Assembly: GCA_030715195.1 (NCBI GenBank)
Contig: JAUYVI010000003.1
Location: 338,960 to 402,959 of the forward strand
Direction: 5' to 3'
Source: Dongia sedimenti
GTDB lineage: Bacteria > Pseudomonadota > Alphaproteobacteria > Dongiales > Dongiaceae
Length of the DNA: 64,000 bases
This document shows, one piece after another, positions 328-24,834 of the stretch. The translations under genes and the position numbers were made by a program. The first letter of the stretch is position 1. Each line of letters opens with the position of its first letter. The notes beneath the pieces were generated by a model. It had not been told where the DNA came from. It ran no database searches and was given only the letters and a program-made list of their open reading frames with translations.

Positions 328-1542
328 TCAGGAGACGTTCCCCTGCGGCCGGGCCCGCTCCACGAAGAAGATCCAGAACGTCCGCCCGCCGTGATAGAGG
401 CAGGTCAGGGCCTGCCAGGCCACGATCAGATAGAGGGTCGGAACCCCGAGCCCGAGGTAATAACCGACTGTGAATAAAGGAAGGTTGATGTTGCGCCGGG
501 AGATGAAGGTGCGCACGAAGGCGTCGATCGGAGCGTGGGTGTGGAGACCCTTGTGGAAACGCCGGGGATAGATCGCGAGGATCAGCCGGTCGAGCACGTA
601 CAGGCCCAGCATCACCAGCCCGGCCTGCCAGGCCGGCGACGTTGTGTCGCCCCCGGTCAGGCCCCAGGCCCAGGCGAGATACCAGAACGGCGGATGCACC
701 AGATCCAGTCCATGGTCGAGGATGTTGCCGAGCCAGGAATCGGTGAAGGTCAGCCGCGCCAGCTTGCCGTCGACCGAATCGAGCACGCTCATGCCGTAAG
801 CGCACAGGAAGCCGAGCAGGAACTGGCCCTCGGCGAAGAGCGGAACGGCGATCAGTGTCAGGAAGATGCTGACCGCCGTCACCAGGTTCGGATGCACGCG
901 TGCCCGCGCCAGCGGCGGCACCATCAGCCAGACCAACGGCGGGTAGACGTACTTGGTGAAGAAATCGGTCGAGCCCTTGTAGTTCGACCAGAACAGAAAG
1001 CGCTCGAGTTTGCGTGCCTGCTCCGCCGTCTCGACGCGAAAGAGGTAGTAGGGCGTGCTCCGCCGAAGCTTGCGGATGAAGGCCGGGAACTCCGCTTGGG
1101 TCAGCGGCGCCAAGCCCGCGACGGAGTTCGAGAGCCGCGTCGCATTGCGGTCGATCCGGGCGATGTCGCCGGGCTCGATGCGGGCCATGACCGCGTCGCT
1201 GTCCGGAGCGTCGCCGCGCGCGACTTTGCTGCCGGCATTCTGGCCGAGATAGCCGTAGAGGCGCGCATCGGCAAGCGTGGCCGCGTCGGTGGCGAGCACC
1301 GCCTCGTTGGCGGCGGCGGCCGCGAGCCGCTCGCCGCAAGTGCCGGTCGATTGCACGATGCGCACCGGCGCTTTCAGCCGCGGCTCGAGCACGAAGCGGG
1401 TTTCCGTCGCGCTGCCGCAATCGACGATGACTTCGCTGATCTCGATCTTCTGATGCCGTGCCGCCTTCAGGTGGCGTTCGATCAGGGACATGCCGAAGAC
1501 CCGCTGCGATGAGGCCTCCGCAGCGTCGATCCACAATTTCAT
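328..1542 (-). CDS. CDP-alcohol phosphatidyltransferase with N-terminal nucleotidyltransferase-like domain (paralogue 1)
   Basis: The protein has 404 residues. The C-terminal half carries the CDP-alcohol phosphotransferase signature D-x2-D-G-x2-A-R-x8-G-x3-D-x3-D (about residues 255-280, starting DSVDGKLAR) inside several membrane helices. The family attaches a phospho-lipid group from a CDP-activated donor to an alcohol. The first 180 residues look like a degraded sugar-nucleotide transferase domain (GMSLIERHLKAA) without the glycine-rich nucleotide loop. The start at 1542 (MKLWID) is chosen because the paralogue at 22051-23346 starts the same way (MIVWID) and because it leaves 4 nt after lptG; a longer start would overlap lptG. 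The gene is co-directional with lptF-lptG and the hydroxylase-like gene. The substrate is unknown. A ceramide-derived donor is inferred from the surrounding locus. Confidence 0.85.
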   Translation of the reverse strand: MKLWIDAAEASSQRVFGMSLIERHLKAARHQKIEISEVIVDCGSATETRFVLEPRLKAPVRIVQSTGTCGERLAAAAANEAVLATDAATLADARLYGYLGQNAGSKVARGDAPDSDAVMARIEPGDIARIDRNATRLSNSVAGLAPLTQAEFPAFIRKLRRSTPYYLFRVETAEQARKLERFLFWSNYKGSTDFFTKYVYPPLVWLMVPPLARARVHPNLVTAVSIFLTLIAVPLFAEGQFLLGFLCAYGMSVLDSVDGKLARLTFTDSWLGNILDHGLDLVHPPFWYLAWAWGLTGGDTTSPAWQAGLVMLGLYVLDRLILAIYPRRFHKGLHTHAPIDAFVRTFISRRNINLPLFTVGYYLGLGVPTLYLIVAWQALTCLYHGGRTFWIFFVERARPQGNVS

Positions 1543-1546
1543 GCTT

Positions 1547-2629
1547 TTAGTAACCTTCGAGACGAATGAGCCATGCGCCGCCGACACTGGCGAAGACCAG
1601 GATCGGCATCCAGGCGGCGACGACGGGCGGGACGGCGCCGGTCTCGCCCAGGGACATCACGAGACCGTCGGAGATGAAATAGAGGAAGCCGAGGCCGAAG
1701 CCGATCGCCATGCCGGCGGCGAGACCGCGGTCGCGGCGATAGAGGCTATGCGCAACCGGCGCCGCCAGCAGGATCATCAGGATCGAGCTCATCGGCAGGG
1801 AGAAGCGCTTCTGCAACCAGGCTTCGTAGAAATAGGTCGGTCGCACGCCGACATCGGCGGAGGTCGCGAATGACCAGATCTTCGCCAGGGTCATCGCCTG
1901 CGGCAACTCGATGAGATTGGAGAACTCGGCCGGAGTCAGGGTCGTCTCCCAGGTCATCTCGGCGCGGTGCTCGGCTTGCGAGGGCTGGTCGGGAATGATG
2001 GATGTGATCCAGACGTCCCTCAGGGTCCATTGACGCTGCTTGGTGTCATAGTGCGCTTCGGCCGCTTGGCGCACACGGTTGAGGATGCCGTTGTCGCCGC
2101 GCTCGTAGATCCGCGTCTGTTTCAGCGTCGCGCCGTACTTGCCCACGCTGGTGACCTCGATCACCGAGCGGCCATCCTGAATGAACACGGCTTCATCGTC
2201 GTCTTTCGAGGAGCGGTCGACATAGATATCGCGCTGGACCATGGCATTGATCGCCCGCGGCACGATCTGATCCGCCAGCGCAAAATGCGCCAGGCCGACC
2301 AGGATCACCGCCGGCAGGAACGAGAGCAATACGGCATTGTAGGGCGCCCCGGCCGCCTTGTAGGCCAGGATCTCGTTGTCGCGCTCCAGCCGTCCCAACG
2401 TCATCAGCGTCGCCAGCAGGACCGCGAACGGCGTCAGGAAGCTCACGATCTCCGGCAGGCGCAGCACGGCATAAAGCGCCAGGGCGCTGAAATGGCCGCC
2501 GCCGCGATTGAGCACCTCGATGCTGTTCGACAACAGGTCGAAGACCTGCAGCAGGGCGGTGAAGCTGATCAACAGCAGCGCCATCTGAAGGAAGAATACG
2601 CGGAGGATATAGCGGCTGAAGGTGCTCAT
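1547..2629 (-). CDS. lptG: LptG-type permease of lipopolysaccharide-export family (YjgP/YjgQ)
   Basis: The protein has 360 residues. It has two N-terminal transmembrane helices, a pair of helices around residues 60-120 with the typical E-I-L-A-Y-K-A-A-G coupling segment, a central periplasmic beta-jellyroll region (about 130-265) and three or four C-terminal helices. This is the architecture of LptG, which with LptF and the LptB ATPase extracts a lipid from the inner membrane. It starts 7 nt after the lptF-type gene. No lptB, lptA or lptC is next to it. The neighbours are sphingolipid and headgroup genes, so this may be the cell's ordinary LPS pair or a paralogue devoted to another lipid; the window alone cannot decide. 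Confidence 0.85.
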   Translation of the reverse strand: MSTFSRYILRVFFLQMALLLISFTALLQVFDLLSNSIEVLNRGGGHFSALALYAVLRLPEIVSFLTPFAVLLATLMTLGRLERDNEILAYKAAGAPYNAVLLSFLPAVILVGLAHFALADQIVPRAINAMVQRDIYVDRSSKDDDEAVFIQDGRSVIEVTSVGKYGATLKQTRIYERGDNGILNRVRQAAEAHYDTKQRQWTLRDVWITSIIPDQPSQAEHRAEMTWETTLTPAEFSNLIELPQAMTLAKIWSFATSADVGVRPTYFYEAWLQKRFSLPMSSILMILLAAPVAHSLYRRDRGLAAGMAIGFGLGFLYFISDGLVMSLGETGAVPPVVAAWMPILVFASVGGAWLIRLEGY

Positions 2630-2636
2630 GCGCGGC

Positions 2637-3827
2637 TCACTCCGCCACCTTGGGGAGGCGTCGCGGCAACAATCGGCGGAACCAGGTGCCGATCGTGCTC
2701 AAGCCGTCAAACAGATGCGCCAACGGATCCTGGCCTGGCTTTCGGTCCGCCACCCAGAACAGCCAGAGGCTGCAGGCCGCAAAAATGGCGCAGGGCACCC
2801 ACAGAGCCGGGATCGGACCGAGCGCCTGCCTCCGCACCATGGCCTCGCCGAACTGCAGGACTTCGTAATAGAAGATCAGGAACAGCACGCCGACGATCAT
2901 CCGCAGGCTCTTCGATGTGCGCCGCGACGAGATGCCGACCGGAAAGGCCAGGAACGGGAGGAAGAGGATCGAGACCGTGCGCACCAGGCGTTCATGCAGC
3001 TCCGCCGTGATATCCTCGATATCCAGGTAGGACGGCGTGTTGAAGTAAAAGCGCACGAGCTCGGTGAAGGTGAGCTCGGATTCCTTCTCACCGCGCGGAC
3101 GAAACGGGTCCGGCGCGATCGATTCCAGCGGCAGGTCGAGTTGATCGAACGTCATCGCGCGCGTGGCGTCGCCGTTGGCCGTGGTTTCGGACCGGATCCC
3201 GTTATGCAGCTGCAGCACCAGCGAGAAGTCGGATTGCTTGCGCAGATCGCCGCGCTCGGCGGTCAGGATGATGCTGCGCCCGGCATCGTCCTTCTCCTTG
3301 ACGAAGATCCTGGTGAGCGTTCGACCTCCGTCGGAGATGTCGCCGATCAGGATGGTCTTGCCGCCGAATCCGGAGAAGAAGGCGCCGCGCTCGATCGCGG
3401 AATCCCACTGGGTGTCGGTGACGAGATGCACCAGGGCGCGATAGCCGAAACGGGTGTAGGGCTGCAGCCAGCCGAGCAGATAGCTGCTGATCATCACCAG
3501 CACGACGGCGAGGGCGAGCACCGGCGCGATCAGGCGCAGCAGCGAGAGGCCACTGGCCCGCATGGCATCGAGCTCGCTCTCGCTGGAGAGTCGCGAGCCG
3601 GCATAGAGCACGCCGATGAAGAGTGCCGCCGGCAGGGCGATGCCGAGATAGAACGGCACCAGGTTGCCCAGCATCTTCAGGATGATCGAGAGCGGGCTGC
3701 CGCGATTGGCGAAGAGATCCAGCAGGTGGATCAGGCGCTGCATCAGCAGCGCCGCCATGGCGATCCCGACCGCGGCCAGCAGGGGCATCAGCACGCGGCG
3801 CAGGATGTAGGCATCGATCAGGCGCAT
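2637..3827 (-). CDS. lptF: LptF-type permease of lipopolysaccharide-export family
   Basis: The protein has 396 residues. The N-terminus MRLIDAYILRRVL leads into membrane helices, followed by the coupling segment (ESELDAMRASG, about residues 81-91), a periplasmic domain (about 130-280) and three C-terminal helices. This is the LptF partner of the adjacent LptG. The start at 3827 overlaps the end of the upstream metallophosphoesterase by 10 nt, which suggests translational coupling. Longer upstream reading in this frame has no membrane-protein character and lies inside the neighbour. The pair sits in an operon with a phosphoesterase and a CDP-alcohol phosphatidyltransferase, an unusual setting for the essential LPS exporter. 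Confidence 0.85.
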   Translation of the reverse strand: MRLIDAYILRRVLMPLLAAVGIAMAALLMQRLIHLLDLFANRGSPLSIILKMLGNLVPFYLGIALPAALFIGVLYAGSRLSSESELDAMRASGLSLLRLIAPVLALAVVLVMISSYLLGWLQPYTRFGYRALVHLVTDTQWDSAIERGAFFSGFGGKTILIGDISDGGRTLTRIFVKEKDDAGRSIILTAERGDLRKQSDFSLVLQLHNGIRSETTANGDATRAMTFDQLDLPLESIAPDPFRPRGEKESELTFTELVRFYFNTPSYLDIEDITAELHERLVRTVSILFLPFLAFPVGISSRRTSKSLRMIVGVLFLIFYYEVLQFGEAMVRRQALGPIPALWVPCAIFAACSLWLFWVADRKPGQDPLAHLFDGLSTIGTWFRRLLPRRLPKVAE

Positions 3828-4786
3828 TGCTGCAGCACCGGCGGGTTGGCGTCGCCCAGCAGCACGATCTCGCCGATCGGTGCGAAACCCGACCCGTCGG
3901 GCTTGAGCTCCCGCATCGACACGGTCAGCGTCCACGCCCCGTCGTTGCGCTCGGCGCGGGACAGGCGATAGAGGTGGTAGCGCGACGGGTCCCGATGATC
4001 GGTCGACACGGCGGAGGCGGACGGCACGCCGATCACCGGCACCGAAGTGCTCGGCCCCTTCATCCGGCCGAGCTGGGACATATGCGTATGGCCGTGCAGC
4101 ATCAGCTCGCATCCGCGCTTCCGGACGATTTCCGCCAGCGCTCCGGCGTCGCGCAGACTCTTGCGCTTATAGGCGCCGCCACCGAACGGTGGGTGATGGA
4201 TCAAGACGATGCGGAACGCGCCGGCCTCGCCGAGCGTCTCGAGCATGGCGTCGAGGCGCTGCAGTTGATCCGTGCCGAGCTCGCCGGCCGCGCTGAATGG
4301 CCGCGTGGGGAGGGCGGTCGAGACGCCGATCAGCGCCACGCCGCCCAGTCGCCGCATGAAGGGAAAATCACGGACGTCCCGCGGCGGCCGATCGTTATCG
4401 CCGCCGTCGAAATGGCGGCCCGTCATGTATTCGCTCCAGAGCCCGGCTGCTTTCGCCCAAGGCAGAGCGACATAGGCATCGTGATTGCCGGGCACCACCG
4501 TCACTTGGTCGCCGGCACCGATCCGCTGCAGGAAAGCATGCGCCTGGATGAACTCGGCGGGCAGGGCGATGTTGACCAGGTCGCCGGTGACGGCAATGTG
4601 ATCGGGCTTCTGCGCCGCCAGGTCCTTGGCGAGCACGTCCAGCACTTCCAAGCGATGGATCTTCGAGCGCTTCAGGCGCCAGGAGAGAAAGCCGGTGACC
4701 CGCTTGCCGGCAAGCGCCCGCAAACCGGGGCGCGGCAGCGGCCCGATGTGCAGATCGGAGATATGGGCGAGAGTCAGGCTGGGCAC
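3818..4786 (-). CDS. calcineurin-like metallophosphoesterase
   Basis: The protein has 322 residues. It carries the full metallophosphoesterase motif series: HISDLH (residues 8-13), GDLVN, GNHDA, LIHHPPF and HGHTH, which bind two metal ions. It is close in shape to the CpdA/Icc class of phosphodiesterases, but the substrate cannot be read from motifs. The start codon is GTG at 4786 with GAGG about 9 nt upstream; the nearby ATG is out of frame. It is the first gene of a minus-strand operon leading into lptF, lptG and a CDP-alcohol phosphatidyltransferase, so hydrolysis of a lipid-linked or nucleotide-linked phosphate (an LpxH-like role) is a plausible but unproven guess. Confidence 0.85.
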   Translation of the reverse strand: MPSLTLAHISDLHIGPLPRPGLRALAGKRVTGFLSWRLKRSKIHRLEVLDVLAKDLAAQKPDHIAVTGDLVNIALPAEFIQAHAFLQRIGAGDQVTVVPGNHDAYVALPWAKAAGLWSEYMTGRHFDGGDNDRPPRDVRDFPFMRRLGGVALIGVSTALPTRPFSAAGELGTDQLQRLDAMLETLGEAGAFRIVLIHHPPFGGGAYKRKSLRDAGALAEIVRKRGCELMLHGHTHMSQLGRMKGPSTSVPVIGVPSASAVSTDHRDPSRYHLYRLSRAERNDGAWTLTVSMRELKPDGSGFAPIGEIVLLGDANPPVLQQCA

Positions 4787-4973: not shown

Positions 4974-6140
4974 ATGAGCGACAGGATTTCCGAACGACCG
5001 AGCGTCCGGATCGTGGCAGGCCCGGCCGGCGGAAGCGCAGGCATCGGGGCCCAACCGCGCCGTTTTTGGGGCATGACGGCCCGAGAGAGACTGGAACGGG
5101 CGTTGGCCCGGGCCGGCGCCAAAACGGCTGACACCGGCCTGCTGCTGGTCCGGGACGACTTCATTTTCGATGAGATGCTGATCCCGGCTTTGCTGCGACA
5201 GCCGGGCCTGCTCTTGACCGGCACCGGCGGAGAGCCGGTCGCCGCGCATCTCTTCGACGCCAGTCAGGCCGCAGCAGTGGGCGCGGCGCTGGCATCGGGC
5301 AGCGACAAGACCATTCCGGCCGAGCTCCGGCGCGTCGACTCGGGCGGCCTGGCCAGCACGTACAACAAGACTTTGCGGCGGCGCGCCCCGCCGTACCTCA
5401 TGCGGGTCGACTCGATGCCGTCGGTCGCGATCGAGCGCCGGATGTTTAACGGCGCTTATAAGGGCGTTACCGATTTCGTGACCAAGCGGCTCTGGCCCTG
5501 GCCGGCCTTTCACGTCACGCGATTCTGCGCCCGCTTCGGCATTTCGCCCAATGTCGTGACCGCGGTCAGCCTGGTGCTGGTTCTGCTGGCGATGGCGCTG
5601 TTCTGGCAGGGCGCATTCGCGCTCGGCCTTGCCTGCGCCTGGGGCATGTGCTTCCTCGACACGGTCGACGGCAAGCTCGCACGGGTCACTCTGCGCTCGA
5701 CGCCGTTCGGCAATGTGTTCGACCACGGCATCGACCTCATCCATCCGCCGTTCTGGTACTGGGCCTGGTATCACGGCCTGTTCGCCGCCAATGACGGGTT
5801 TACCGACTCGCTGCTCAACCTGTCGCTGCTCGTGGTGATCGTCGGCTATGTGGCCGGCCGGCTGCAGGAAGGCCTCTTCACCTGGCTGCACGGGATCGAG
5901 ATCCACATCTGGCGGCCGGTCGATTCCTGGTTCCGCGAGATCACCGCGCGGCGCAACCCCAATCTGTTCATCCTGACCGTGGCAGTGATCCTCGGATCGC
6001 CGCGAGAGGGATTTGTGCTGGTCGCGATATGGACCCTGGTGTCTTTCGCCTTCCACACGATCCGGATCCTCCAGGCGTCCCTCACCAAGGCGATGGGGCG
6101 TCCGCCGGTCTCCTGGCTGAGCGAACCGATCAAACCATGA
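4974..6140 (+). CDS. CDP-alcohol phosphatidyltransferase family protein (paralogue 2)
   Basis: The protein has 388 residues. The CDP-alcohol phosphotransferase signature begins at about residue 229 (DTVDGKLAR, then G-x3-D-x3-D) within a multi-helix membrane domain. Ahead of it is the YKGVTDFVTK segment, which is also present in paralogues 1 and 3. The N-terminal 150 residues are soluble and more divergent than in the other two. The end overlaps the following lipid kinase by an ATGA junction (6137-6140), so the two are translationally coupled. The kinase is in turn followed directly by a Tam41-like nucleotidyltransferase. This suggests the enzyme uses a CDP-lipid made by its two partners. It diverges from the lptF operon across a 187-nt gap that must hold both promoters. 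Confidence 0.85.
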   Translation: MSDRISERPSVRIVAGPAGGSAGIGAQPRRFWGMTARERLERALARAGAKTADTGLLLVRDDFIFDEMLIPALLRQPGLLLTGTGGEPVAAHLFDASQAAAVGAALASGSDKTIPAELRRVDSGGLASTYNKTLRRRAPPYLMRVDSMPSVAIERRMFNGAYKGVTDFVTKRLWPWPAFHVTRFCARFGISPNVVTAVSLVLVLLAMALFWQGAFALGLACAWGMCFLDTVDGKLARVTLRSTPFGNVFDHGIDLIHPPFWYWAWYHGLFAANDGFTDSLLNLSLLVVIVGYVAGRLQEGLFTWLHGIEIHIWRPVDSWFREITARRNPNLFILTVAVILGSPREGFVLVAIWTLVSFAFHTIRILQASLTKAMGRPPVSWLSEPIKP

Positions 6141-7099
6141 GCGCCAAGATCGGCGTCCTCAGCAACGCCCACAGCAAGCGGAACCGGGAGGCGCTGGGTG
6201 CATTCTCCGCGCTGCTGCACGATCATCCGCAGGTGAAGCACCTCGCCTTCCACGACATTTCCGACCTCGTCGAATGTCTGCGGGAGATGGCCGCCGCAGG
6301 GGTCACGCATCTCTGCATCAGCGGCGGCGATGGGACGGTTCAGGCCACGATCAGCGCGCTCATCAATGACAAGCCGTTCCCCACGCTGCCGAAGCTGAGC
6401 CTGCTCTCGGCCGGCATGACCAACGTCATCGCCCGCGATCTCGGCGAGACCGAGCTGCCGGCGCCGCACTTGAAGCGGCTGATCGAACGGGTCGAAGCGG
6501 GTGATCCCGGGGAGACGGTCGAGCGCGCGGTGATGACTCTCGAACTCGGCGATGATGGCCCGCCGATCCACGGCTTTCTGCTCGGCGCGATCGCCTTCTA
6601 CCAGGGTACGATTCTCGGCCGGCGCAAGGTGCACGGCATGGGCTTCACCCAGAGTCTCGCCAGCAAGATCGGCATCCTGCTCTCGGTGCTGCGCGTCCTC
6701 TGGTACGGGCCGGGGGCGAAATCCGGCTTCACCGGCGAGCGCGTCGCCATGGCGCTCGACGGCCGGGCGGACGCGCCGCAGGAGCTGTTCCTGCTGGTCT
6801 GCACGACGCTCACGCAGATCCTGCCCGGCATCAAGCCGTTCTGGGGCCAGGGGCCGGGGCGAATGCAGATCACCACCATCAGTCATCCGCCGCGCCGCTT
6901 CGCCTGGGCCGCTTTGCCGGCCCTGCGCGGCAAGCCGCGGCCATGGATGGAGGCCTATGGCTATTGCAGCCGGCGCGCGGAACAGCTTGAGTGCGACCTG
7001 GTGACGCCGGTTGTGTTCGACGGTGAGTTCCTGGAGACCGATGGCGGACCAGGGTTCAAGCTCTCGGTCGGCCCGACCATCACCTTCACGCGCTATTGA
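6137..7099 (+). CDS. diacylglycerol-kinase-family lipid kinase, candidate ceramide kinase
   Basis: The protein has 320 residues. It has the diacylglycerol/sphingosine-kinase catalytic fold, with the nucleotide loop GGDGT at residues 63-67 and an S-x-G-M-T-N segment near residue 92 that fits the second conserved region of the family (usually G-T-x-N). These enzymes phosphorylate the free hydroxyl of diacylglycerol, sphingosine or ceramide using ATP. The start overlaps the upstream phosphatidyltransferase stop (ATGA). The next gene begins 7 nt after the stop. Ceramide is inferred as substrate because the gene lies between headgroup enzymes and a complete sphingolipid backbone operon, as with the Caulobacter ceramide kinase locus as I remember it. 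Diacylglycerol or another lipid alcohol remains possible. Confidence 0.8.
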   Translation: MSAKIGVLSNAHSKRNREALGAFSALLHDHPQVKHLAFHDISDLVECLREMAAAGVTHLCISGGDGTVQATISALINDKPFPTLPKLSLLSAGMTNVIARDLGETELPAPHLKRLIERVEAGDPGETVERAVMTLELGDDGPPIHGFLLGAIAFYQGTILGRRKVHGMGFTQSLASKIGILLSVLRVLWYGPGAKSGFTGERVAMALDGRADAPQELFLLVCTTLTQILPGIKPFWGQGPGRMQITTISHPPRRFAWAALPALRGKPRPWMEAYGYCSRRAEQLECDLVTPVVFDGEFLETDGGPGFKLSVGPTITFTRY

Positions 7100-7106
7100 G
7101 GAACGT

Positions 7107-8009
7107 TTGGCGGACGCGCTGCGCGAAACCTTGAGCGAGGAATTGAACCGGCCGGTCGCCGCGACGGTTCACGCCATCGCCGATGTCTTGCGCGCGCGCT
7201 ATGAGCGCGCCGCCGTGGCGGTGCTGTTCTACGGATCCTGCCTGCGCTCGCCCGAGGCCGAACTCGCCGACAATCTGCTCGACTTCTATGTCCTGGTGGA
7301 CGATTACCGCCGAGCCTACGACAAGACCTGGCTCGCGGTCGCCAACCGTCTCCTGCCGCCGAATGCCTTCTATTGCGAGACGGTGTGGCAGGGGGGTCAT
7401 ATCCGCGCCAAGTATGTCGTGATCTCGCTGGAGGATTTCGCGCGCTTCTGCCGGCCCGAGACGCAGAACGTCTCGGTCTGGGCGCGTTACGCGCAGCCGG
7501 CGCGCATCGTCTGGACCCGCGATGGCGCGACCGCCGAACGCATCGTGACCGCCTGCATGGACGCGGTGCGGACGATGCTGCGTCGGGCCTGGCCGTTGGA
7601 GCCGGCGAGCCGAGATGCGCGCAGGCTCTGGACCCGCGCGATGCGGGAGACCTACGCGGCGGAGCTGCGGCCGGAAGGGAGCGACCGCGCGGTCAAGATC
7701 TTCGAGAACGATCAGGCGCGCTACGAGCGCCTGACGCCGCTGGTGCTGGACGAGCTGGGGCAGCCGGAGATGTCGCCGGAGCAAGCTGCGGCCGGCTGGA
7801 AACGCCGCCGCCGGCTCGGCAAGACCTTGAACCTGCTGCGCATCATCAAAGGCATCTTCACCTTCGACGGTGGCCTCGACTACGCGCTGTGGAAGATCAA
7901 GCGCCATTCCGGCATGACCGTGCCGGTCACCGACTGGCAGCGCCGGCATCCGCTGCTGGCCGCACCGGGGCTGGCCTGGCGACTCTATCGGATGGGTGCG
8001 TTCCGCTAG
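7107..8009 (+). CDS. Tam41-like nucleotidyltransferase, candidate CDP-lipid (CDP-ceramide) synthase
   Basis: The protein has about 300 residues and is soluble. A nucleotidyltransferase-fold motif YGSC (residues 42-45) is followed by LLDFYVLVD (57-65). Further on, the segment AKYVVISLEDF and then a W-x-R-Y-A-Q-P-A-R-I stretch resemble the conserved IKYGVIS and GRLQKPV regions of Tam41/MMP37, the mitochondrial CDP-diacylglycerol synthase. That resemblance is from memory, not from an alignment. TTG at 7107 is the likely start because GAGG lies 5 nt before it; an ATG at 7041 would overlap the kinase by 59 nt. It is the last gene of the phosphatidyltransferase-kinase-nucleotidyltransferase operon and abuts the convergent desaturase. 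The proposed job is to convert a phospho-lipid to a CDP-lipid. Confidence 0.7.
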   Translation: MADALRETLSEELNRPVAATVHAIADVLRARYERAAVAVLFYGSCLRSPEAELADNLLDFYVLVDDYRRAYDKTWLAVANRLLPPNAFYCETVWQGGHIRAKYVVISLEDFARFCRPETQNVSVWARYAQPARIVWTRDGATAERIVTACMDAVRTMLRRAWPLEPASRDARRLWTRAMRETYAAELRPEGSDRAVKIFENDQARYERLTPLVLDELGQPEMSPEQAAAGWKRRRRLGKTLNLLRIIKGIFTFDGGLDYALWKIKRHSGMTVPVTDWQRRHPLLAAPGLAWRLYRMGAFR

Positions 8010-8984
8010 CTACTCAGCCGCCTGCTTGTTCGGCACCGACTGGTTGTGGATGACCCGGCTGTAGGCCGACATCTGCGGATTGAAGATGAAGCCCAGCACC
8101 ACCGCGACCCAGGACCGGTAGTAGAAACGGTTGTCGTAGAACTCGCCCGCGACCTTCTTGAGCTTGGGCAGGTTGTTCCAGGGCACGTTGGCGAAGTCGT
8201 GGTGCTCGACGTGGTAGCCCATGTTGAAGCAGAGCCGGTTCAGTGGGCCGTAATACGAATGCGTGTCCTGCTTGCGATCCACCGAGTAGTGCTCCTGGAT
8301 CCAGCGGCCGCCCATCGGGTGCAGGCCAAGTGCGAAGAAGGTCGAGAGCACCAGGTAGAGCAGGGCATACCAGCCGAAGAAATAGACCAGCGCCGCATCG
8401 ACCAGCACCTGGATCACCATGTTCGCCGTCATCCAGTTGTCGCCGATAGGCTTGCCGATCAGCATCTTCACTTTCAGCGGCCGCAACATCTGCGAGATCG
8501 AGAGGCCGGCGATCCAGAGCGCCTTGCGCACGGCCGAGTTGCCGACCAGCTTGGCTTCGCCATGCAGCACGATGTCCGGATCCCGCTCGTACTGGCCGAG
8601 ATACTTGTGGTGCATCAGATGGTACTTGCGGAACGCCATCGCGCTCGGCAGCGCCAGGGCGAAGTCGCAGACAATGCCCAATACCCGATTCCAGACCGCC
8701 TTTTCGAACACGGTGTCATGGGTGCATTCGTGCATCAGCACATAGAGCGCGTGGTTGATCACAGCCCCGACGAAATAGGCGACCAGCAGCATCGCCCACC
8801 AGGGCGCCTGCGTAATATTGGCGGCGATGATGAACTGCGCCGCGCCGAGCCCGATCACCCAGGCGGCGGTCCAGGGATTCTTGGCGATCAGCTGCCGCAC
8901 TTCGGGATGCGCCTTCAGGATGTCGCGCCGGCGCTGGAAGTGCTCGTTGACCGCGTCCGAGTATGTGAAGTCCAGGTTCTGCAT
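8010..8984 (-). CDS. DES/DEGS-type sphingolipid delta-4 desaturase
   Basis: The protein has 324 residues, with four or more membrane segments and the three histidine boxes of membrane diiron desaturases: HECTH (85-89), HLMHH (122-126) and HVEHH (258-262). Regions outside the boxes match eukaryotic dihydroceramide delta-4 desaturases as I recall them: an N-terminal RRRDIL segment, GLHPMGG near 220, SYYGPLN (243-249), GYHVEHHDF (256-264) and a C-terminal AYSR. The enzyme would place the 4,5 double bond in the sphingoid base of ceramide. ATG at 8984 is chosen because the alignable N-terminus begins there. It stands alone on the minus strand: a terminator lies between it and serine palmitoyltransferase, and its stop touches the stop of the convergent Tam41-like gene. 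Confidence 0.85.
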   Translation of the reverse strand: MQNLDFTYSDAVNEHFQRRRDILKAHPEVRQLIAKNPWTAAWVIGLGAAQFIIAANITQAPWWAMLLVAYFVGAVINHALYVLMHECTHDTVFEKAVWNRVLGIVCDFALALPSAMAFRKYHLMHHKYLGQYERDPDIVLHGEAKLVGNSAVRKALWIAGLSISQMLRPLKVKMLIGKPIGDNWMTANMVIQVLVDAALVYFFGWYALLYLVLSTFFALGLHPMGGRWIQEHYSVDRKQDTHSYYGPLNRLCFNMGYHVEHHDFANVPWNNLPKLKKVAGEFYDNRFYYRSWVAVVLGFIFNPQMSAYSRVIHNQSVPNKQAAE

Positions 8985-9135
8985 GTTCCAAATCTGCTGT
9001 CCGCGGCCGTCGCCGGGCCGCCTGTGCCACAGGTTCTTTACCAGAAGATGGGCGATTCCGACCACACATCATCCGGGACCCATCGTCGCGGCCGGAAACG
9101 TTAACGCAGGCGCGTTTCGGGTGAAGCGGGAGCCA

Positions 9136-9194: not shown

Positions 9195-10427
9195 CTATTC
9201 GGCAGCGGCCCTGACTTGGCCTGCGCCGTCCTCGGCCGGGATGATGCCGAGCTGACGTCCCACTTCACCCAAGGCTTCGATGACTTGCTCGAGCTGTTCC
9301 GTCGTGTGCGCCGCGCAGACCGAGCAGCGCAACAGGGCGGTGCCGCTCGGCGTCGCGGGCGGCAGAGCGAGGTTCACGTAGACGCCGTTCGAAAGCAGGC
9401 CGTGCCACGCCATGGCGGCGAGCTCGGGGCCGTTGATATGGACGGCGACGACCGGGCCGCGCTGCTTGCCGAGGCGGAAGCCCTTGGCCTGAAGCCCGTC
9501 ATAGAGAGTGTCCACGTTCTGCCAGAGGCGGGTCATCATCTCCGGCTCGGCGCGCAGGCGCGCCAGCGAAGCGCGCACCGAGGCGACGATCGAAGGCGGC
9601 AGCGAAGCGGTGAACATGTAAGGCCGGCAGGCGACGCGCAGGATGTCGAAGTCCGGATGATCGGAGATCAGGAAGCCGCCGATCGCGCCCATGCTCTTCG
9701 AGAAGGTGCCGGTGATGAAATCGACATCGGCATCGACGCCGTCATGCTCCAGGCAGCCGCGGCCGGTCTTGCCCATGACGCCCATCGAATGGGCCTCATC
9801 GACCAGCAGGTAGGCGCCGTGCTTCTTCTTGACCGCGACGAACTCCTTGAGCGGCGCGTGGTCGCCCAGCATCGAATAGATGCCTTCGACCACGACGATC
9901 TTGTTGCCGGGCTCCTTGGCAAGGCGCGCCAAGCGCTTGTCGAGATCGGCCGGGTCGTTGTGCTTGAAGCGGATCACCGTGGCATGGCCGAGGCGACACG
10001 CGTCATAGATCGAGGCATGGCTGTCGGCATCGACCAGCAGATAGTCGCCCGGGCCGGCCAGGGTCGAAATCGCGCCCAGATTCGCCTGGTAGCCGGTGGT
10101 GAAGACCATGCAGTGCTGCTTGCCGTAGAAATCGGCGAGATCCTGCTCCAGCGCCTTGTGGTCGTCGTAGGACCCGTTGGCAATGCGCGAGCCGGTCGTG
10201 CCGGTGCCATACTTGTCGAGCGAGGCCTTGGCGGCGGCGAGGCTATCGGCGTCGAAGGTCAGACCGAGATAGTTGTTGCTGCCGCAGAGAATCGTGTGAC
10301 GACCCTCGATCTCGGCTTCGGTCGACGAGAGAATGCGATCCATCTTCACGCCGAACGGATCAGCGCCACACGCCTTGATCTGGCCGTGTGCGGCGCGCAA
10401 TTCCTGGAACCGATCAAACAAACCCAT
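9195..10427 (-). CDS. spt: serine palmitoyltransferase
   Basis: The protein has 410 residues and is a soluble PLP-dependent alpha-oxoamine synthase. The PLP lysine is in GTFSKS (Lys244). Asp210 and His213 are in VDEAHS, and the cofactor-stacking His137 is in DSHASIYD. The family also includes AONS (BioF) and KBL. The serine palmitoyltransferase call rests on the immediately upstream dedicated acyl carrier protein (2 nt between genes), the ceramide-reductase-like and acyl-ACP synthetase genes in the same operon, and the desaturase next door. It condenses L-serine with an acyl thioester to give 3-oxo-sphinganine, the committed step. Lack of a membrane anchor is normal for the bacterial enzyme. 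Confidence 0.88.
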   Translation of the reverse strand: MGLFDRFQELRAAHGQIKACGADPFGVKMDRILSSTEAEIEGRHTILCGSNNYLGLTFDADSLAAAKASLDKYGTGTTGSRIANGSYDDHKALEQDLADFYGKQHCMVFTTGYQANLGAISTLAGPGDYLLVDADSHASIYDACRLGHATVIRFKHNDPADLDKRLARLAKEPGNKIVVVEGIYSMLGDHAPLKEFVAVKKKHGAYLLVDEAHSMGVMGKTGRGCLEHDGVDADVDFITGTFSKSMGAIGGFLISDHPDFDILRVACRPYMFTASLPPSIVASVRASLARLRAEPEMMTRLWQNVDTLYDGLQAKGFRLGKQRGPVVAVHINGPELAAMAWHGLLSNGVYVNLALPPATPSGTALLRCSVCAAHTTEQLEQVIEALGEVGRQLGIIPAEDGAGQVRAAAE

Positions 10428-10429
10428 CG

Positions 10430-10690
10430 TTATGCCCCCGCCTTCTGGTCGCGGACGGCCTTCGCCAGCTGCCCGACCGTCGTGATCTCCGCCACCATGT
10501 TCAGCGGAATCGACACGTCGAATTTGTCTTCGAGCACCATCAGAAGATCCATCACCGCAAGCGAATCCAGTTTGAGGTCGCGGGCGATCTCGGTCTCGGC
10601 GGTGATTGGCTCATCCGACTTCTTGAAGGGCAGGAGCGCATTGATGATCTCGGCGAGGACTGAATCCTCGGTCGGTGCGTCCATGCCCAT
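10430..10690 (-). CDS. dedicated acyl carrier protein for sphingolipid synthesis
   Basis: The protein has about 86 residues and is acidic and helical. The phosphopantetheine attachment serine is Ser43 in the LDSLAVMD motif. It ends 2 nt before serine palmitoyltransferase, so it likely delivers the acyl group to that enzyme, as described for the special sphingolipid ACP of Caulobacter. ATG at 10690 and ATG at 10684 are both possible starts, and neither has a strong ribosome binding site. An inverted repeat at 10827-10845 lies upstream in the promoter region. Confidence 0.88.
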   Translation of the reverse strand: MGMDAPTEDSVLAEIINALLPFKKSDEPITAETEIARDLKLDSLAVMDLLMVLEDKFDVSIPLNMVAEITTVGQLAKAVRDQKAGA

Positions 10691-10826
10691 GATTGCGACT
10701 GCAGCCAAAATGCCTTACCGAATTCTCTATTGCCCCGGGACCCTGAACTGCCCCTTCCGCGTCGACTTACGTGACGCTTGCGGGGTCACTTGTCACCCGA
10801 TTGCGGCGATTTGGTGAAATGACATT

Positions 10827-10892: not shown

Positions 10893-11837
10893 TTAACGAA
10901 GCCAACCTATAGCGCGATACCAAGCCAGCGTATCCGCGAAACCTCTTGTGACGTCGAAGGCCGGTTTCCATCCGGTCCGGGCCTCCAGCCGGGGCCCTCG
11001 GGCCACCCAGTCCGCGTGGTAAAGCTCCGGCACCTTGGCCAGCGAAAGCGCGGTGAGCGACCCCGCGACCCGGCGGTGCGCCTCGACGCCCAGGGCGATC
11101 GCGGTGAGAACCGGGCGAGGCACCCGGATCATCCGCACCGGCCGAGCCAGCGCAGCGGACAGTCCGGCGCCGATCTCGGTCCAGGCGTAGCCGCCGGCAT
11201 GCCCGTCGTCCAACTCGTAGACCGGATCCGGAAGGATGGTTTCCGCCGCGGCGACGATGGCTGCGGCGAGATCGGCGCCGTGAATCAGCGAAACCCGACC
11301 TTGCGGCGCCGCCGGATACGCGCAAATGCCCAGCGCTGCGGCCTTGAACATCGGGTAGATCTCGGTGTCCCCCGGGCCGTAGACCGCGGGTGGGCGGAGG
11401 ATCGTCAGCCGCGCCGGATTGGCGAGCGCCTGGATCGCCTCCTCGCCGCCGCGTTTGCTGGCGCAATAGGGCGAAAGGCTCGGTTCGCGCGCGGCCAGCG
11501 ACGAGACATGGATGACGCGGAGGTCCGGCGACGCGTTCGAGAGTGCCGTCGCCAAATGCCGGGTACCTTCGACATTGACCTTGTGAAACACGGCGGCGTG
11601 GCGGGCCTTGATGACGCCCGCCACATGGATGACCACATCGACCCCGCCGACCAGGCGGTGCAGCGCCGGCTCATCGTCGAGGTCACCGAGCACAACCTCG
11701 AGCGGCCTGTCGGGTGTCAATGCCGTGATCGGCATGCGGCGCGCGAGGATGCGGACCTGATGTCCCGCGGCGATCAGCCTGCGGATGACATGGGAGCCGA
11801 CAAAACCGGTCGCCCCGGTGACGGCGACCCGCAACAT
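10893..11837 (-). CDS. cerR: NAD(P)-dependent epimerase/dehydratase-family reductase, candidate ceramide reductase
   Basis: The protein has 314 residues. It is an extended short-chain dehydrogenase with the Rossmann loop GATGFVG (residues 8-14), the catalytic YCASK tetrad segment near residue 130 and a downstream RPPAVYGPGD substrate-loop segment. In Caulobacter a protein of this family reduces the 3-oxo group of the sphingolipid intermediate. Here it lies between the acyl-ACP synthetase (5 nt gap) and acp-spt (about 200 nt), all on one strand. That context is the main reason for the call, since the family itself is broad and mostly acts on sugar nucleotides. Confidence 0.75.
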   Translation of the reverse strand: MLRVAVTGATGFVGSHVIRRLIAAGHQVRILARRMPITALTPDRPLEVVLGDLDDEPALHRLVGGVDVVIHVAGVIKARHAAVFHKVNVEGTRHLATALSNASPDLRVIHVSSLAAREPSLSPYCASKRGGEEAIQALANPARLTILRPPAVYGPGDTEIYPMFKAAALGICAYPAAPQGRVSLIHGADLAAAIVAAAETILPDPVYELDDGHAGGYAWTEIGAGLSAALARPVRMIRVPRPVLTAIALGVEAHRRVAGSLTALSLAKVPELYHADWVARGPRLEARTGWKPAFDVTRGFADTLAWYRAIGWLR

Positions 11838-11842
11838 GGGCG

Positions 11843-13585
11843 TTAAGCGGAAGCAGCCTCGGCGCGGGCGTAAGCCCCACCGAGGAAATTGGCCTTGGCC
11901 TTGGCGCGGCTGAGCTTGCCGGAGGAAGTCTGCGGCAGGCCGTGCGGCGGAACCAGCACGACGCTGGCCTCGACCGCCATCGCCTTCTGCAGGACCGCGG
12001 CGACCTCACGCTCCAGCCTGGCGCGCGCGTCAGGATCGCTGCTGCGGCATTGCACCAGGACGACGATGCGCTCGGCGTCTTCCTCGTCCGGATTCTCGAC
12101 CGAAATCGCGGCCACATCGCCGCGGCGCAGCTCGTCTATGCCGTCCTCCGCCGCCCATTCGAGGTCCTGCGGCCAGATGTTGCGGCCGTTGAGGATGATG
12201 AGGTCCTTGGCCCGGCCGGTGATCACGATCTGGCCGTTCAACAGATAGCCGAGGTCGCCGGTATCCAGCCAACCCTCCGGTGAGAGCGTCTCGCGTGTCA
12301 GTTCCGGCTGGTTGAAGTAGCCTTTCATCACGCTGGGGCCGCGGAAGAAGATGCGGCCGATGCGCCGCTCCGGCAGCGGCTTCCCGGCGGCGTCACGCAC
12401 CTGCAATTCATGACCCGGCAGAGCGGGGCCGCAGGCGATGAAGCCACGCGAGTCCGGCCCTGCTTCGGCCGGCTCGGCGCGGTCGCGCTCCAGCGCGGCG
12501 CGCGAGACGGTGTCGAGCGTGTAGACCTCTTCCAGCGGCGCGAAGCTCATGGCGAGCGTGGTTTCCGCCATGCCGTAGCTCGGGCAGAAGGCGGTCTCCC
12601 GGAAGCCGAACGGGCCGAAGGCATCGACGAAGCGCTTCAGCACCGCCGGCTGCACCATGTCGCCGCCGATTCCGGCCGCGCGCCAGGAGGAGAGGTCGCC
12701 TTTGAACTCGGTGCCGTCGCGGAGACGTCGGACGCAGAGATCGTAGCCGAAGCTCGGACTGTAGGCGAGCGTGCCGCCGTATTCGGAGATCAGGTTCAGC
12801 CAGGTCAGCGAACGGCGCGCGAAGTCGCGGGTCGCGAGGTAGTCGACCGAAAGCTGGTTCAGGATCGGCGTGAGCATGAACCCAACCAGGCCCATGTCGT
12901 GATAGAAGGGCAGCCACGAGGCGCAGCGATCGCCGGCGCGCACCTGGAGCCCGTGATTGCCGATCCCAAACGCATTGGCCAGCAGCACGCTTTGCGGGAT
13001 GTCGATGCCCTTCGGAAAGCGCGTGCTGCCCGAGGAATATTGCAGGTAGCTGGGCTCGTCCTTGGCGAAAGGCTTCAAGTCGCCGCCGCCGGTCGGCAGC
13101 GCGGCCAGATCGGCGCTGCCGCCGACCAGCTTCAGCGCGAGGCCTTCCGCCGCCTCCCGCAGGAAAGGCAATAGATCGCCCGGAGCCCACGCCAACTTGG
13201 CGCCGCAGCCGTCGATCTGATGGCGCAGCTGCTGGACATAGGCGGCTCGGCCACCGAGGCTGGTCGGAATTGCGACCGGCACGGGCACCAGGCCGGCATA
13301 CTGGGTCGCCATGAAGGTGATGCAGAACTCGGGAGTCGTATCGGCGATCATCACCATGCGATCGCCGCGTGCCAGGCCAAGCGCTGCCAACCGCTGCGCG
13401 AGGTCGCGGGCCTGCTCGCGGAGCGCGCGAAAGGAAAGAACCTGCTTCAACTCACCGCGCGCGGTGAAAAAGTTGAATCCGGCGTCACCGCGGGCCGCGT
13501 AATCCAGCCCTTCCCAAAGCGTTTCAAAATCAGCCCGCCGCAGCGCCAAACTGGCGCTGGTCGTCGGCGTCGCGGTCAGTGTCAT
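11843..13585 (-). CDS. aasR: fatty acyl-AMP ligase/acyl-ACP synthetase of the sphingolipid operon
   Basis: The protein has about 580 residues and is an adenylate-forming enzyme. The ATP-binding loop YSSGSTRFPKG sits near residue 170. YGMAE and the GWLDTGD motif follow, and the C-terminal TSSGKLSR segment holds the catalytic lysine. The sequence resembles FAAL-type enzymes, which hand the acyl group to a carrier protein rather than to CoA. As first gene of the operon with acp and spt, it most likely loads the dedicated ACP. ATG at 13585 is preferred; an upstream TTG would add 13 residues of no family character. It is divergent from the large unknown gene at 13769. Confidence 0.8.
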   Translation of the reverse strand: MTLTATPTTSASLALRRADFETLWEGLDYAARGDAGFNFFTARGELKQVLSFRALREQARDLAQRLAALGLARGDRMVMIADTTPEFCITFMATQYAGLVPVPVAIPTSLGGRAAYVQQLRHQIDGCGAKLAWAPGDLLPFLREAAEGLALKLVGGSADLAALPTGGGDLKPFAKDEPSYLQYSSGSTRFPKGIDIPQSVLLANAFGIGNHGLQVRAGDRCASWLPFYHDMGLVGFMLTPILNQLSVDYLATRDFARRSLTWLNLISEYGGTLAYSPSFGYDLCVRRLRDGTEFKGDLSSWRAAGIGGDMVQPAVLKRFVDAFGPFGFRETAFCPSYGMAETTLAMSFAPLEEVYTLDTVSRAALERDRAEPAEAGPDSRGFIACGPALPGHELQVRDAAGKPLPERRIGRIFFRGPSVMKGYFNQPELTRETLSPEGWLDTGDLGYLLNGQIVITGRAKDLIILNGRNIWPQDLEWAAEDGIDELRRGDVAAISVENPDEEDAERIVVLVQCRSSDPDARARLEREVAAVLQKAMAVEASVVLVPPHGLPQTSSGKLSRAKAKANFLGGAYARAEAASA

Positions 13586-13768
13586 TGGGACCTTCGGTCG
13601 CACCGATGATAATATGCCGCACAAATGATAGATTGCGGAGGGGCGGCACGGCCCCTAGGATTTGTGTGTGCATAGCAAATGTCCGGTGCGATCTCAAGGC
13701 GCGCGAGTAGCCTTGGATCATGCCCGACGCCTGGGGAGGGCCGGGCGGCGCCGCGGCCGAAATCGATC

Positions 13769-22050: not shown

Positions 22051-23346
22051 CTAATCCAACTTCACCGTCTTCGCCGCGACTTCCACCGGCGCGCGATCCT
22101 TGTGCTGGGCTTTCTCGATGCACAGGATCCAGAACGTCCGGCCGGCGTGATAGAGCGTGGTGGCCGCCTGCCAGGCGACGATCAGGAAGAAGGCTTCGCG
22201 CCCGAACCCGATCAGATAGCCGACGGTGAACAGCGGCAGGCTGATGTTGCGCCGCGCGATGAAACTGCGCACCAGCCCGTCCATGCGCGAATGGGTATGG
22301 AACGCCCGCTTGAAGACGTAAGGATAGATCTTCAGCACCACACGATCGATCACGTAGAGCGCGAAGATCGCAATCGCGCCCTGCCCGAGCGGTGAGGCCC
22401 AGCCCTCCGTCGCAATACCCAGCCCATAGGCCCAGGAAAGATACCAGAGCGGCGGATGGACCATGTCGAGCCCGTGGTCCAGGTAATTGCCGCTGACACT
22501 GTCCGTGAAGGTCAGGCGCGCGAGCTTGCCGTCGACGGAGTCGAGCACGCTCATTCCATAGGCCATCATGAAGCCGGTGATGAAGTATCCGTCCGCCCAG
22601 CAAGGGATGGCGGCCAGGGCCAGGATGATGCTGACCAGCGTCACCCAGTTGGGATGCACCCGCCAGCGGGCCAGCGGCCGCACCGCCAGCCAGACTAGCG
22701 GCGGATAGACATAGCGCGTGAAAAGATCAGTCGAGCCCTTGTAGTTCGACCAGAACAGGAAGCGCTCCAGCTTGGCCGCGCGCCCGGCGCCGTCCACGGT
22801 GAAGAGGTAGTAGGGCAGGGTGCGGCGCAGCCGCCGCACGAACCCGCTGAACTCGTCGTCCTTTAAGCTGGGGATGCCGCCGGAATCCACCAGCCGCCTG
22901 GCGAGCGCCGCCGTGCTGCCGGGATTCGCGACCAGCTCGCCGGCAACGACCGCGCGATCCCCGGCGAGGAACAGAATGGCGGCGGGGTCTTGCGCTTCTC
23001 GGCTGAGCACGACGGTGGAAGCGGTGCGGGCCGCGAGCGCAGCCGGCAGTCGGCCGTCCGCCAAGGTCGTGGCATCGAGCACAAGCAGAGGCTCGCTGCC
23101 GGCCGAAGCAAGAATCTGGCCGAGGCGCGCGGCATAGGCCTCGCCGCTGCGCCGCCATTCCAACGGCAGCCGGTAGAGCCGCTTGTCGCCGAGCTTCGGC
23201 TCCGACCTACCGGCCGCGAGATCGATGATGATCCGCGACGGCAGCGGCTTCAGCCCGCGTAGACCGTGCAGGTGGCGCTCCAGCAGGCTCAGGCCAAATA
23301 TGGGTGGCGCGGAATCCGCGGCGAGCGCGTCGATCCAGACAATCAT
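22051..23346 (-). CDS. CDP-alcohol phosphatidyltransferase with N-terminal nucleotidyltransferase-like domain (paralogue 3)
   Basis: The protein has 431 residues and is clearly paralogous to the product of 328-1542 along its whole length: same MxxWIDA start, FGLSLLERHL segment, LERFLFWSNYKGSTD segment and the signature DSVDGKLAR (from residue 269) followed by G-x3-D-x3-D. The N-terminal domain again lacks a glycine-rich nucleotide loop, so it may bind rather than activate a nucleotide. It starts 3 nt after the ELM1-family gene ends and is probably co-transcribed with it. A role in attaching a phospho-headgroup to a membrane lipid is expected, and the alcohol and donor are unknown. Confidence 0.85.
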   Translation of the reverse strand: MIVWIDALAADSAPPIFGLSLLERHLHGLRGLKPLPSRIIIDLAAGRSEPKLGDKRLYRLPLEWRRSGEAYAARLGQILASAGSEPLLVLDATTLADGRLPAALAARTASTVVLSREAQDPAAILFLAGDRAVVAGELVANPGSTAALARRLVDSGGIPSLKDDEFSGFVRRLRRTLPYYLFTVDGAGRAAKLERFLFWSNYKGSTDLFTRYVYPPLVWLAVRPLARWRVHPNWVTLVSIILALAAIPCWADGYFITGFMMAYGMSVLDSVDGKLARLTFTDSVSGNYLDHGLDMVHPPLWYLSWAYGLGIATEGWASPLGQGAIAIFALYVIDRVVLKIYPYVFKRAFHTHSRMDGLVRSFIARRNISLPLFTVGYLIGFGREAFFLIVAWQAATTLYHAGRTFWILCIEKAQHKDRAPVEVAAKTVKLD

Positions 23347-23349
23347 CGA

Positions 23350-24561
23350 TCAAGCCTGCTGTTCGGCGCGCTTCGCAGCGAACTGATCGCGGATCCTGGC
23401 CACCACCATGTCGCGCTCTTCCTTCGGAACGCGACGCGGATTCCAGACGCGCGGACGCACCGTGGCTTCGACCGGGCCGAGCGGACGCGCAAGCCCGGCC
23501 TGATAGAGCCGGCGTTCGAAGGCATCGACGCTGCGCCGCGGCCGGGCATGCCCGAACCGGGTCATCGCGTCGTAGAAGCGATCGGAGAAGTCCGGCGTGA
23601 GGCCGGCCACGCGGCGGGTCTCGCGGCGGCTGCGGAAATAGTGCCTGATCGTCTGAATCAGCCCCATGTTGCGGCGCTTTTCCCGGCGCGGCACCTGGAA
23701 GACGTAAAGCGGCTTCATCAGGTCGACCGCCTCGGCGATCATCGAGACGCTGTCATTGGTGACGATGAAATCGTCCGCCAGCCGCAGGAAGGCCTGATAG
23801 GGGTTGGGCGCGTGCCGCGACCAGCGGTGCAGGAAATGCGCATGGCCGATCTCGTTTTCGAACAAATCGGCGACGTCCATCGTGGTGCGCGGGCTCGTCG
23901 TCACCAGCAAGGAACCATTTGCGCCGGCGACATGGGCCTTGGCCCGGATCAGAAGGTCGCTCCCGACCTCGCGATCGAAGCGCAGCTGCGATGTCGGCCC
24001 GCCGACGAACACCGCCGTCCAGGGGCGCGGCAGGTTGCGGAGCTGCGGCTCCCAATGCCGCGCCTCGGCATCCAGGGCCGCATCGTCGTGCATGATGATC
24101 GGCAGGGTCAGCGTGGTCACATTCGGCCCCGGCGGCAGGCCATATTGTGGCGTCGTCACGATCAGGTCGAAGTGGTGATAGGCGATCCGCGGTCGCCCGA
24201 GATGGACGTTCAGGAGACGCCCGCCGGTCTGTTCCTTGATCCAGCGCGAAACCGGTGCCAGGCGCCGGCCGACCGCCACGATGACATCGGGCCAGGGCGC
24301 GCTCAACGCATCGCTGAGGCCGACATCGACGCCGATCAGGGTCGCGCCGCGTTGATGAAAGGGAACCTCGCAGGTCGGGTCGAAGCGAATCTGCTTGACC
24401 GCGCAGTCCCAGCCCAGATCCAGCATCAGCGCCCGGCCGAGTGCCAGAACCTGGGCATTGTCGCCCTGACGCTCGCCGAGCAGCAGCCAGACCCGCGGTG
24501 CCGGGACCGCTTCCTCGACGGTGTTAATCACCCGCAGATGACGTCTCGGCGATTCGCTCAT
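23350..24561 (-). CDS. ELM1/GtrOC1-family protein (DUF1022)
   Basis: The protein has 403 residues and is soluble. The WLLLGERQGDNAQ opening, the central VGGPTS segment and the DDFIVTNDSVSMIAEA segment are characteristic of the ELM1 family. In plants this family affects mitochondrial fission. In bacteria it is uncharacterised and looks like a GT-B-type glycosyltransferase. The C-terminal 100 residues are rich in arginine. It is the first gene of a two-gene minus-strand unit with the CDP-alcohol phosphatidyltransferase (3 nt gap), and a functional link in lipid headgroup or glycan assembly is inferred from that alone. Confidence 0.75.
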   Translation of the reverse strand: MSESPRRHLRVINTVEEAVPAPRVWLLLGERQGDNAQVLALGRALMLDLGWDCAVKQIRFDPTCEVPFHQRGATLIGVDVGLSDALSAPWPDVIVAVGRRLAPVSRWIKEQTGGRLLNVHLGRPRIAYHHFDLIVTTPQYGLPPGPNVTTLTLPIIMHDDAALDAEARHWEPQLRNLPRPWTAVFVGGPTSQLRFDREVGSDLLIRAKAHVAGANGSLLVTTSPRTTMDVADLFENEIGHAHFLHRWSRHAPNPYQAFLRLADDFIVTNDSVSMIAEAVDLMKPLYVFQVPRREKRRNMGLIQTIRHYFRSRRETRRVAGLTPDFSDRFYDAMTRFGHARPRRSVDAFERRLYQAGLARPLGPVEATVRPRVWNPRRVPKEERDMVVARIRDQFAAKRAEQQA

Positions 24562-24834
24562 TCTTTAAGGACTCTGGGTCGCGATGGCGCGGAACCTATC
24601 AGAGCGCTCCCCAAGCGCCAAGAGCGGTCGGTCTCGGCCCTTGGGGCGGCAGCGGCGGCTGTGCGCGAGTTCACAAGACCCTCGGATTTCGGAATCGGCG
24701 TCGGCAAAACGGCCCTATAATCATAATTGCGGCCTTACAGCCGCCACCGTCTTCAGCGAACCTGAAGGCCGACTGCCGCGACAATGACTCGACCGATTGT
24801 AGTCAAAGCACTTAGCACCGGGGCCCCGACTTCC

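Follow-up and report, generated by a model that had tools for sequence, protein, structure and literature searches.

By its gene families and their order, the locus analyzed here is a Caulobacter-type CPG/CPG2 cluster, a cluster of known kind that here turns up in a different lineage, and the third gene of its central operon, cpgC, encodes what a predicted structure supports well as a Tam41-like nucleotidyltransferase, whose product is likely to be CDP-ceramide. The cluster lies in a window of 64,000 nucleotides (G000:C20:338960-402959) of a Dongia genome of 6.13 Mb. The pathway that we regard as fairly probable begins with CpgB, which would convert ceramide to ceramide-1-phosphate. CpgC, whose cationic tail would serve at the membrane, would transfer CMP from CTP to ceramide-1-phosphate to give CDP-ceramide; a further enzyme would displace CMP with glycerate or a similar alcohol to give CPG; and a CpgD-like protein would make the CDP-glycerate that CpgA would use for the second phosphoglycerate. 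The reactions of CpgB and CpgD and the gene order are the work of others, in Caulobacter, while the cluster, the predicted CpgC fold and the co-occurrence come from the present analysis. We infer CTP as the donor, ceramide-1-phosphate as the acceptor and a consumer for CDP-ceramide.

In Caulobacter crescentus, the CPG/CPG2 cluster is described as running from CC_1152 to CC_1168 and as containing cpgA-D, spt, cerS, cerR, acpR, aasR and lpt genes, with eleven genes required for CPG2 (PMC11324152). The same source reports that CPG needs CC_1160 and CC_1161, that CPG2 needs CC_1159, CC_1153 and CC_1152, and that CC_1158 contributes; it also credits Zymomonas mobilis with genes for CPG. We equate CC_1152 with CCNA_01210 (CpgD) and CC_1159-1161 with CCNA_01217-01219 through the matching descriptions in the papers. 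The families of the ceramide genes (SPT, ACP, CerR, AasR, CerS) and of cpgA, cpgB and cpgC were all found in the window together with locus L115 just before it. Gene names were assigned from family and gene order; orthology to the Caulobacter genes is drawn from these and from the Zymomonas mobilis locus (L099) as a bridge, and not from comparison with Caulobacter sequences.

The features of the cluster are collected in Table 1. The earlier note had described three coupled genes, and all three ORFs are present as it had them: cpgA and cpgB overlap in an ATGA (6137-6140) and cpgB is followed by cpgC after a 7-nt gap, GGAACGT. The cpgC frame was read from a TTG; the ORF lister starts it at 7011, within the kinase gene. 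Pfam matches agree with the assignment of the first two genes to the phosphatidyltransferase and lipid kinase families, and CpgB carries a GGDG motif (CISGGDGTVQ) with its DAGK_cat domain. Genes for the ceramide backbone had been placed next to the operon, and SPT, ACP, the protein in the CerR place and the acyl-AMP ligase do lie there, all on the minus strand.

Table 1. Genes of the cluster in the window and in locus L115 just before it, with the matches that define them.
Feature	Position	Strand	Match or remark
CpgA2, second CDP-alcohol phosphotransferase, clade other than CpgA	328..1587	-	PF01066 2.2e-8
LptF/LptG-type permease	1547..2629	-	PF03739 1e-69
LptF/LptG-type permease	2637..3845	-	PF03739 1.9e-75; ORF lister end 4112
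Calcineurin-like phosphoesterase, CC_1158 place	3818..4786	-	PF00149 4.9e-14
CpgA	4974..6140	+	388 aa; CDP-alcohol phosphotransferase behind an N-terminal domain of about 150 aa; PF01066 (CDP-OH_P_transf) 3.1e-9; phmmer match to AF2299-type chains over residues 30-282
CpgB, DAGK_cat superfamily, putative ceramide kinase by analogy	6137..7099	+	320 aa; PF00781 (DAGK_cat) 1.3e-10
CpgC, Tam41-like nucleotidyltransferase, proposed CDP-ceramide synthase	7107..8009	+	300 aa; TTG start at 7107
Fatty acid desaturase	8010..9065	-	PF00487 1.6e-32; PF08557 (sphingolipid Delta4-desaturase N-terminal domain) 9.1e-8
Serine palmitoyltransferase (SPT)	9195..10427	-	NF047599 662.7 bits, cut-off 500
Acyl carrier protein, AcpR place	10430..10708	-	PF00550 1.6e-11
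NAD-dependent epimerase/dehydratase-family protein, CerR place	10893..11837	-	PF01370 2e-26
Fatty acyl-AMP ligase, AasR place	11843..13624	-	NF006624 785 bits, cut-off 600
Third CpgA-like CDP-alcohol phosphotransferase	22054-23346	-	Clade apart from CpgA
Fatty acid hydroxylase	L115		Just before the window
GNAT protein, CerS place	L115		Just before the window
MobA-like nucleotidyltransferase	L115		Just before the window
CpgD-like cytidylyltransferase-superfamily protein	L115:10584-11312		Best PDB match CTP:phosphocholine cytidylyltransferase, 2e-13

Several other genes of the region deserve mention. The desaturase between cpgC and SPT suggests that a sphingosine-type double bond may be possible in a bacterium. 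The segment 13679-22046 (+) holds five ORFs (at 13679, 15750, 16822, 18099 and 21159) with no Pfam match at E 0.001, the first of which shows 63-67% identity across Dongia-type loci. An ELM1-family gene (23353-24561, -, PF06258 7e-53) is separated by 6 nt from the third CpgA-like gene; ELM1 relatives occur in 15 of 80 CpgC loci (L109 being the one typed with Pfam), and in L093, L094, L098, L101, L109 and L112 they stand on the same strand directly 3' of cpgC. Further along the window, a bacterial alpha-2-macroglobulin (24784-30063, +) precedes a BiPBP_C-containing bifunctional penicillin-binding protein (30060-32135, +). At another locus, L048, a DUF2141 gene (8325-8891, +, 1.4e-23) is found just upstream of cpgB.

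The likeness of CpgC to Tam41, which had been read from motifs, is borne out by structure prediction and structural search, which gave the Tam41 fold: the predicted structure has a nucleotidyltransferase domain and a winged-helix domain arranged as in Tam41, and its nearest neighbours among solved structures are CDP-DAG synthases, which transfer CMP to a lipid phosphate. No Pfam model, PF09139 included, matches the window protein at E values up to 5; among 81 relatives, PF09139 matches 18 when E up to 1 is allowed, and passes its cut-off in 2 of 10 that were rescanned. One relative had fission-yeast Tam41 chains as its top PDB matches (E 0.0023); Tam41 was not reached in searches of PDB sequences with a second relative or with family profiles A1 and A3. 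CpgC is thus Tam41-like rather than Tam41 proper, since the window protein lacks a PF09139 match and few relatives exceed the cut-off. No canonical Tam41 passed the PF09139 cut-off in the genome itself (best E 0.286), and 398 genomes of the phylum gave a single match, below the cut-off, at E 2.2e-4. Residue D59 is kept in all 81 sequences, with L, V, M or I at position 57. Residues 223-300 carry a net charge of +12 (family mean +12.5, range 8-18), with modest hydrophobic moments of 0.17-0.26. A Tam41 fold in common does not by itself fix the substrate.

The company that cpgC keeps bears on this question. Among 289 genomes of the class (thresholds E 0.001 for CpgC and 1e-8 for CpgB and CpgA; SPT by cut-off), CpgC and CpgB each occur in 34, and the two sets are identical. 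SPT exceeds its cut-off in 39 genomes, including all of these 34; the other five (G012, G066, G079, G145, G280) have neither CpgB nor CpgC. Fisher values for this co-occurrence ignore shared ancestry. By a strict rule, cpgB lies directly upstream of cpgC in 43 of the 70 loci with more than 1 kb of upstream sequence; nine further loci have it there with over-long ORFs, making 52 of 70, and 18 do not show it there, and co-occurrence per genome is the better measure than adjacency. The nearest relatives of CpgC in named records (52-57% identity for the first nine loci) are from Dongia species and from MAGs labelled Rhodospirillaceae or Proteobacteria; the Zymomonas mobilis protein is 42% identical to it, and there is no named Caulobacter record among the 80 CpgC loci. 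Because the operon and its neighbours recur in named genomes, and CpgC relatives in these 34 genomes of the class, the arrangement is more than chance.

The earlier note had ceramide as the likely substrate of the pathway and expected CdsA elsewhere in the cell for diacylglycerol. The genome does hold CdsA-type genes (PF01148), at two other sites, so that a Tam41 is not required for diacylglycerol. Caulobacter CpgB is reported to convert ceramide to ceramide-1-phosphate in vitro, and also to phosphorylate diacylglycerol comparably, with phosphatidic acid unchanged on its deletion (PMC10331486). The CC_1161 mutant is described as having neither CPG nor CPG2 and moderately raised ceramide (PMC11324152). 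The claim for ceramide therefore stands as to the association of CpgC with CpgB and SPT and the Caulobacter results, and not as to ceramide being the sole substrate, given the activity of CpgB on diacylglycerol. That CDP-DAG synthases lead the structural matches could, with this same activity, make CpgC a second CDP-diacylglycerol synthase with the true Tam41 function and an indirect link to sphingolipids; we consider this highly improbable, in view of the separate CdsA, the restriction of CpgC to genomes with CpgB and SPT (34 of 34) and the phenotype of the CC_1161 mutant. The co-occurrence, the separate CdsA and the Caulobacter mutants together favour ceramide-1-phosphate as the acceptor of CpgC. 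CDP-ceramide and variants of the name were absent from the literature searched, with subscription journals mostly outside it. The idea had been put forward as new; in fact PMC11324152 already notes that an InterPro domain of CC_1161 suggests a CDP-diacylglycerol synthase and that the protein might form NDP-activated ceramide.

The published schemes are drawn differently. In the Fig. 5 legend of PMC12275187, as in PMC11324152, CpgC takes ceramide-1-phosphate to CPG with no additional enzyme. The same legend, in 2025, calls the way in which CpgC does so unidentified, and the conclusions of PMC11324152 allow that the condensation might require a so-far unknown enzyme. CpgC could use a nucleotide without activating ceramide-1-phosphate: it might activate phosphoglycerate or another small phosphate, or might itself couple glycerate to ceramide-1-phosphate, a scheme credited to Zik et al. 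These drawings speak for such an activity, as does the fact that the surroundings of cpgC in 80 loci showed no enzyme dedicated to consuming CDP-ceramide. We nevertheless find it rather unlikely: CpgD is reported to make CDP-glycerate already, and its mutant to retain CPG (PMC12275187), while the folds nearest to CpgC transfer CMP to a lipid phosphate and its cationic tail fits a lipid substrate.

If CpgC makes CDP-ceramide, the question becomes which enzyme uses it. The earlier note gave this step to the phosphatidyltransferase of the operon, CpgA, which would attach the head group directly. CpgA is in one operon with the other two genes, coupled by ATGA, its CDP-alcohol motif DTVDGKLARVTLRSTPFGNVFDHGID is intact, and its weak NCBIfam matches are led by users of CDP-lipids (archaetidylinositol phosphate synthase, 46.7 bits, below the cut-off of 180). 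Against this, CC_1160 alone is reported to restore CPG in a CC_1159/CC_1160 double mutant (PMC11324152), so CC_1159 is dispensable for CPG; at E 1e-8 no CpgA is matched in 14 of the 34 genomes that carry CpgB and CpgC (the 20 genomes of 289 with CpgA are all among the 34); and the cluster has, in its CpgD-like gene, a putative maker of CDP-glycerate of its own, the CDP-glycerate from CpgD being what CpgA (CC_1159) is proposed to consume in Caulobacter (PMC12275187). Direct use of CDP-ceramide by CpgA is thus distinctly improbable, and the last step as first drawn is probably wrong; by analogy with Caulobacter genetics, CpgA would be the enzyme for the second phosphoglycerate. A tree places it in the CpgA clade with support 100/100, separate from both CpgA2 and the third paralog, with a warning for long branches that meet. 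CpgA2 (331-1587) and the third paralog share 52% identity, and three genomes of the same genus have three CpgA-type matches each.

Two other sources of a consumer were examined. CpgA2 was ruled out as a general one, since BLAST finds it in only 13 of 80 loci (L035-L040, L042, L043, L045, L054, L071, L086, L106). Across the 80 loci, 1895 unannotated ORFs were clustered, and none of the resulting families is present in most loci; the largest cluster covers 25 loci and may consist of shadow ORFs.

The genomes without CpgA narrow the choice. Exactly two PF01066 genes are found in 6 of these 14 genomes (G026, G158, G159, G167, G256, G264), and likewise in Zymomonas mobilis. NCBIfam typing of G026, G158, G167, G256 and Zymomonas identified one gene as PgsA, over cut-off in all five; the other has PssA as its best match, over cut-off in four. 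With only these two genes, any CDP-alcohol phosphotransferase that uses CDP-ceramide there would be of the PssA or PgsA type; the reasoning covers this superfamily, with phospholipase-D-type and other enzymes outside it. Phosphoglycerate corresponds to phosphoserine in which a hydroxyl has replaced the amino group, and this resemblance makes PssA chemically attractive as the consumer. Tentatively, we suggest as one possibility that CpgC is the first CDP-ceramide synthase to be recognized, that its product enters the general machinery of glycerophospholipid synthesis, that where CpgB and CpgC occur without a CpgA-type enzyme it replaces CDP-diacylglycerol as a substrate of PssA (with glycerate or serine) or of PgsA, and that CpgA and CpgD are a later addition that lengthens the head group.

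In Caulobacter, CPG and CPG2 help life without lipopolysaccharide and set polymyxin sensitivity. The Tam41-type fold and the strict company of CpgB reduce the CpgC step to a one-tube assay. If the proposal is true, CDP-ceramide joins the CDP-activated lipids and the Tam41 fold gains a sphingolipid branch in Proteobacteria.

Compared with Tam41/TAMM41 (PF09139), a CDP-diacylglycerol synthase, CpgC falls outside the Pfam model but shares the family trait of keeping only one of the three nucleotidyltransferase acidic residues, and its cationic C-terminal tail may correspond to the positively charged C-terminal membrane helix of Tam41. Tam41 goes with cardiolipin synthesis, whereas CpgC sits with a putative ceramide kinase and SPT. 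The reaction proposed for CpgC is of the CdsA type, from CTP and a lipid phosphate to a CDP-lipid; CdsA is described as an integral membrane protein of a fold unrelated to the Tam41 type (PMC7018664). In gene families and neighbourhood, the Caulobacter and Dongia clusters have in common CpgA, CpgB, CpgC, SPT, ACP, CerR-like and AasR-like proteins, CpgD-like and CofC-like nucleotidyltransferases, a CerS-like GNAT protein, an LptF/LptG pair and a phosphoesterase. CpgB has the same DAGK_cat fold and place in the operon in both, and accompanies CpgC without exception among the 289 genomes. Dongia differs in its extra genes: two CDP-alcohol phosphotransferases that belong to a second clade (331-1587 and 22054-23346), the DES-domain desaturase beside SPT and the fatty acid hydroxylase.
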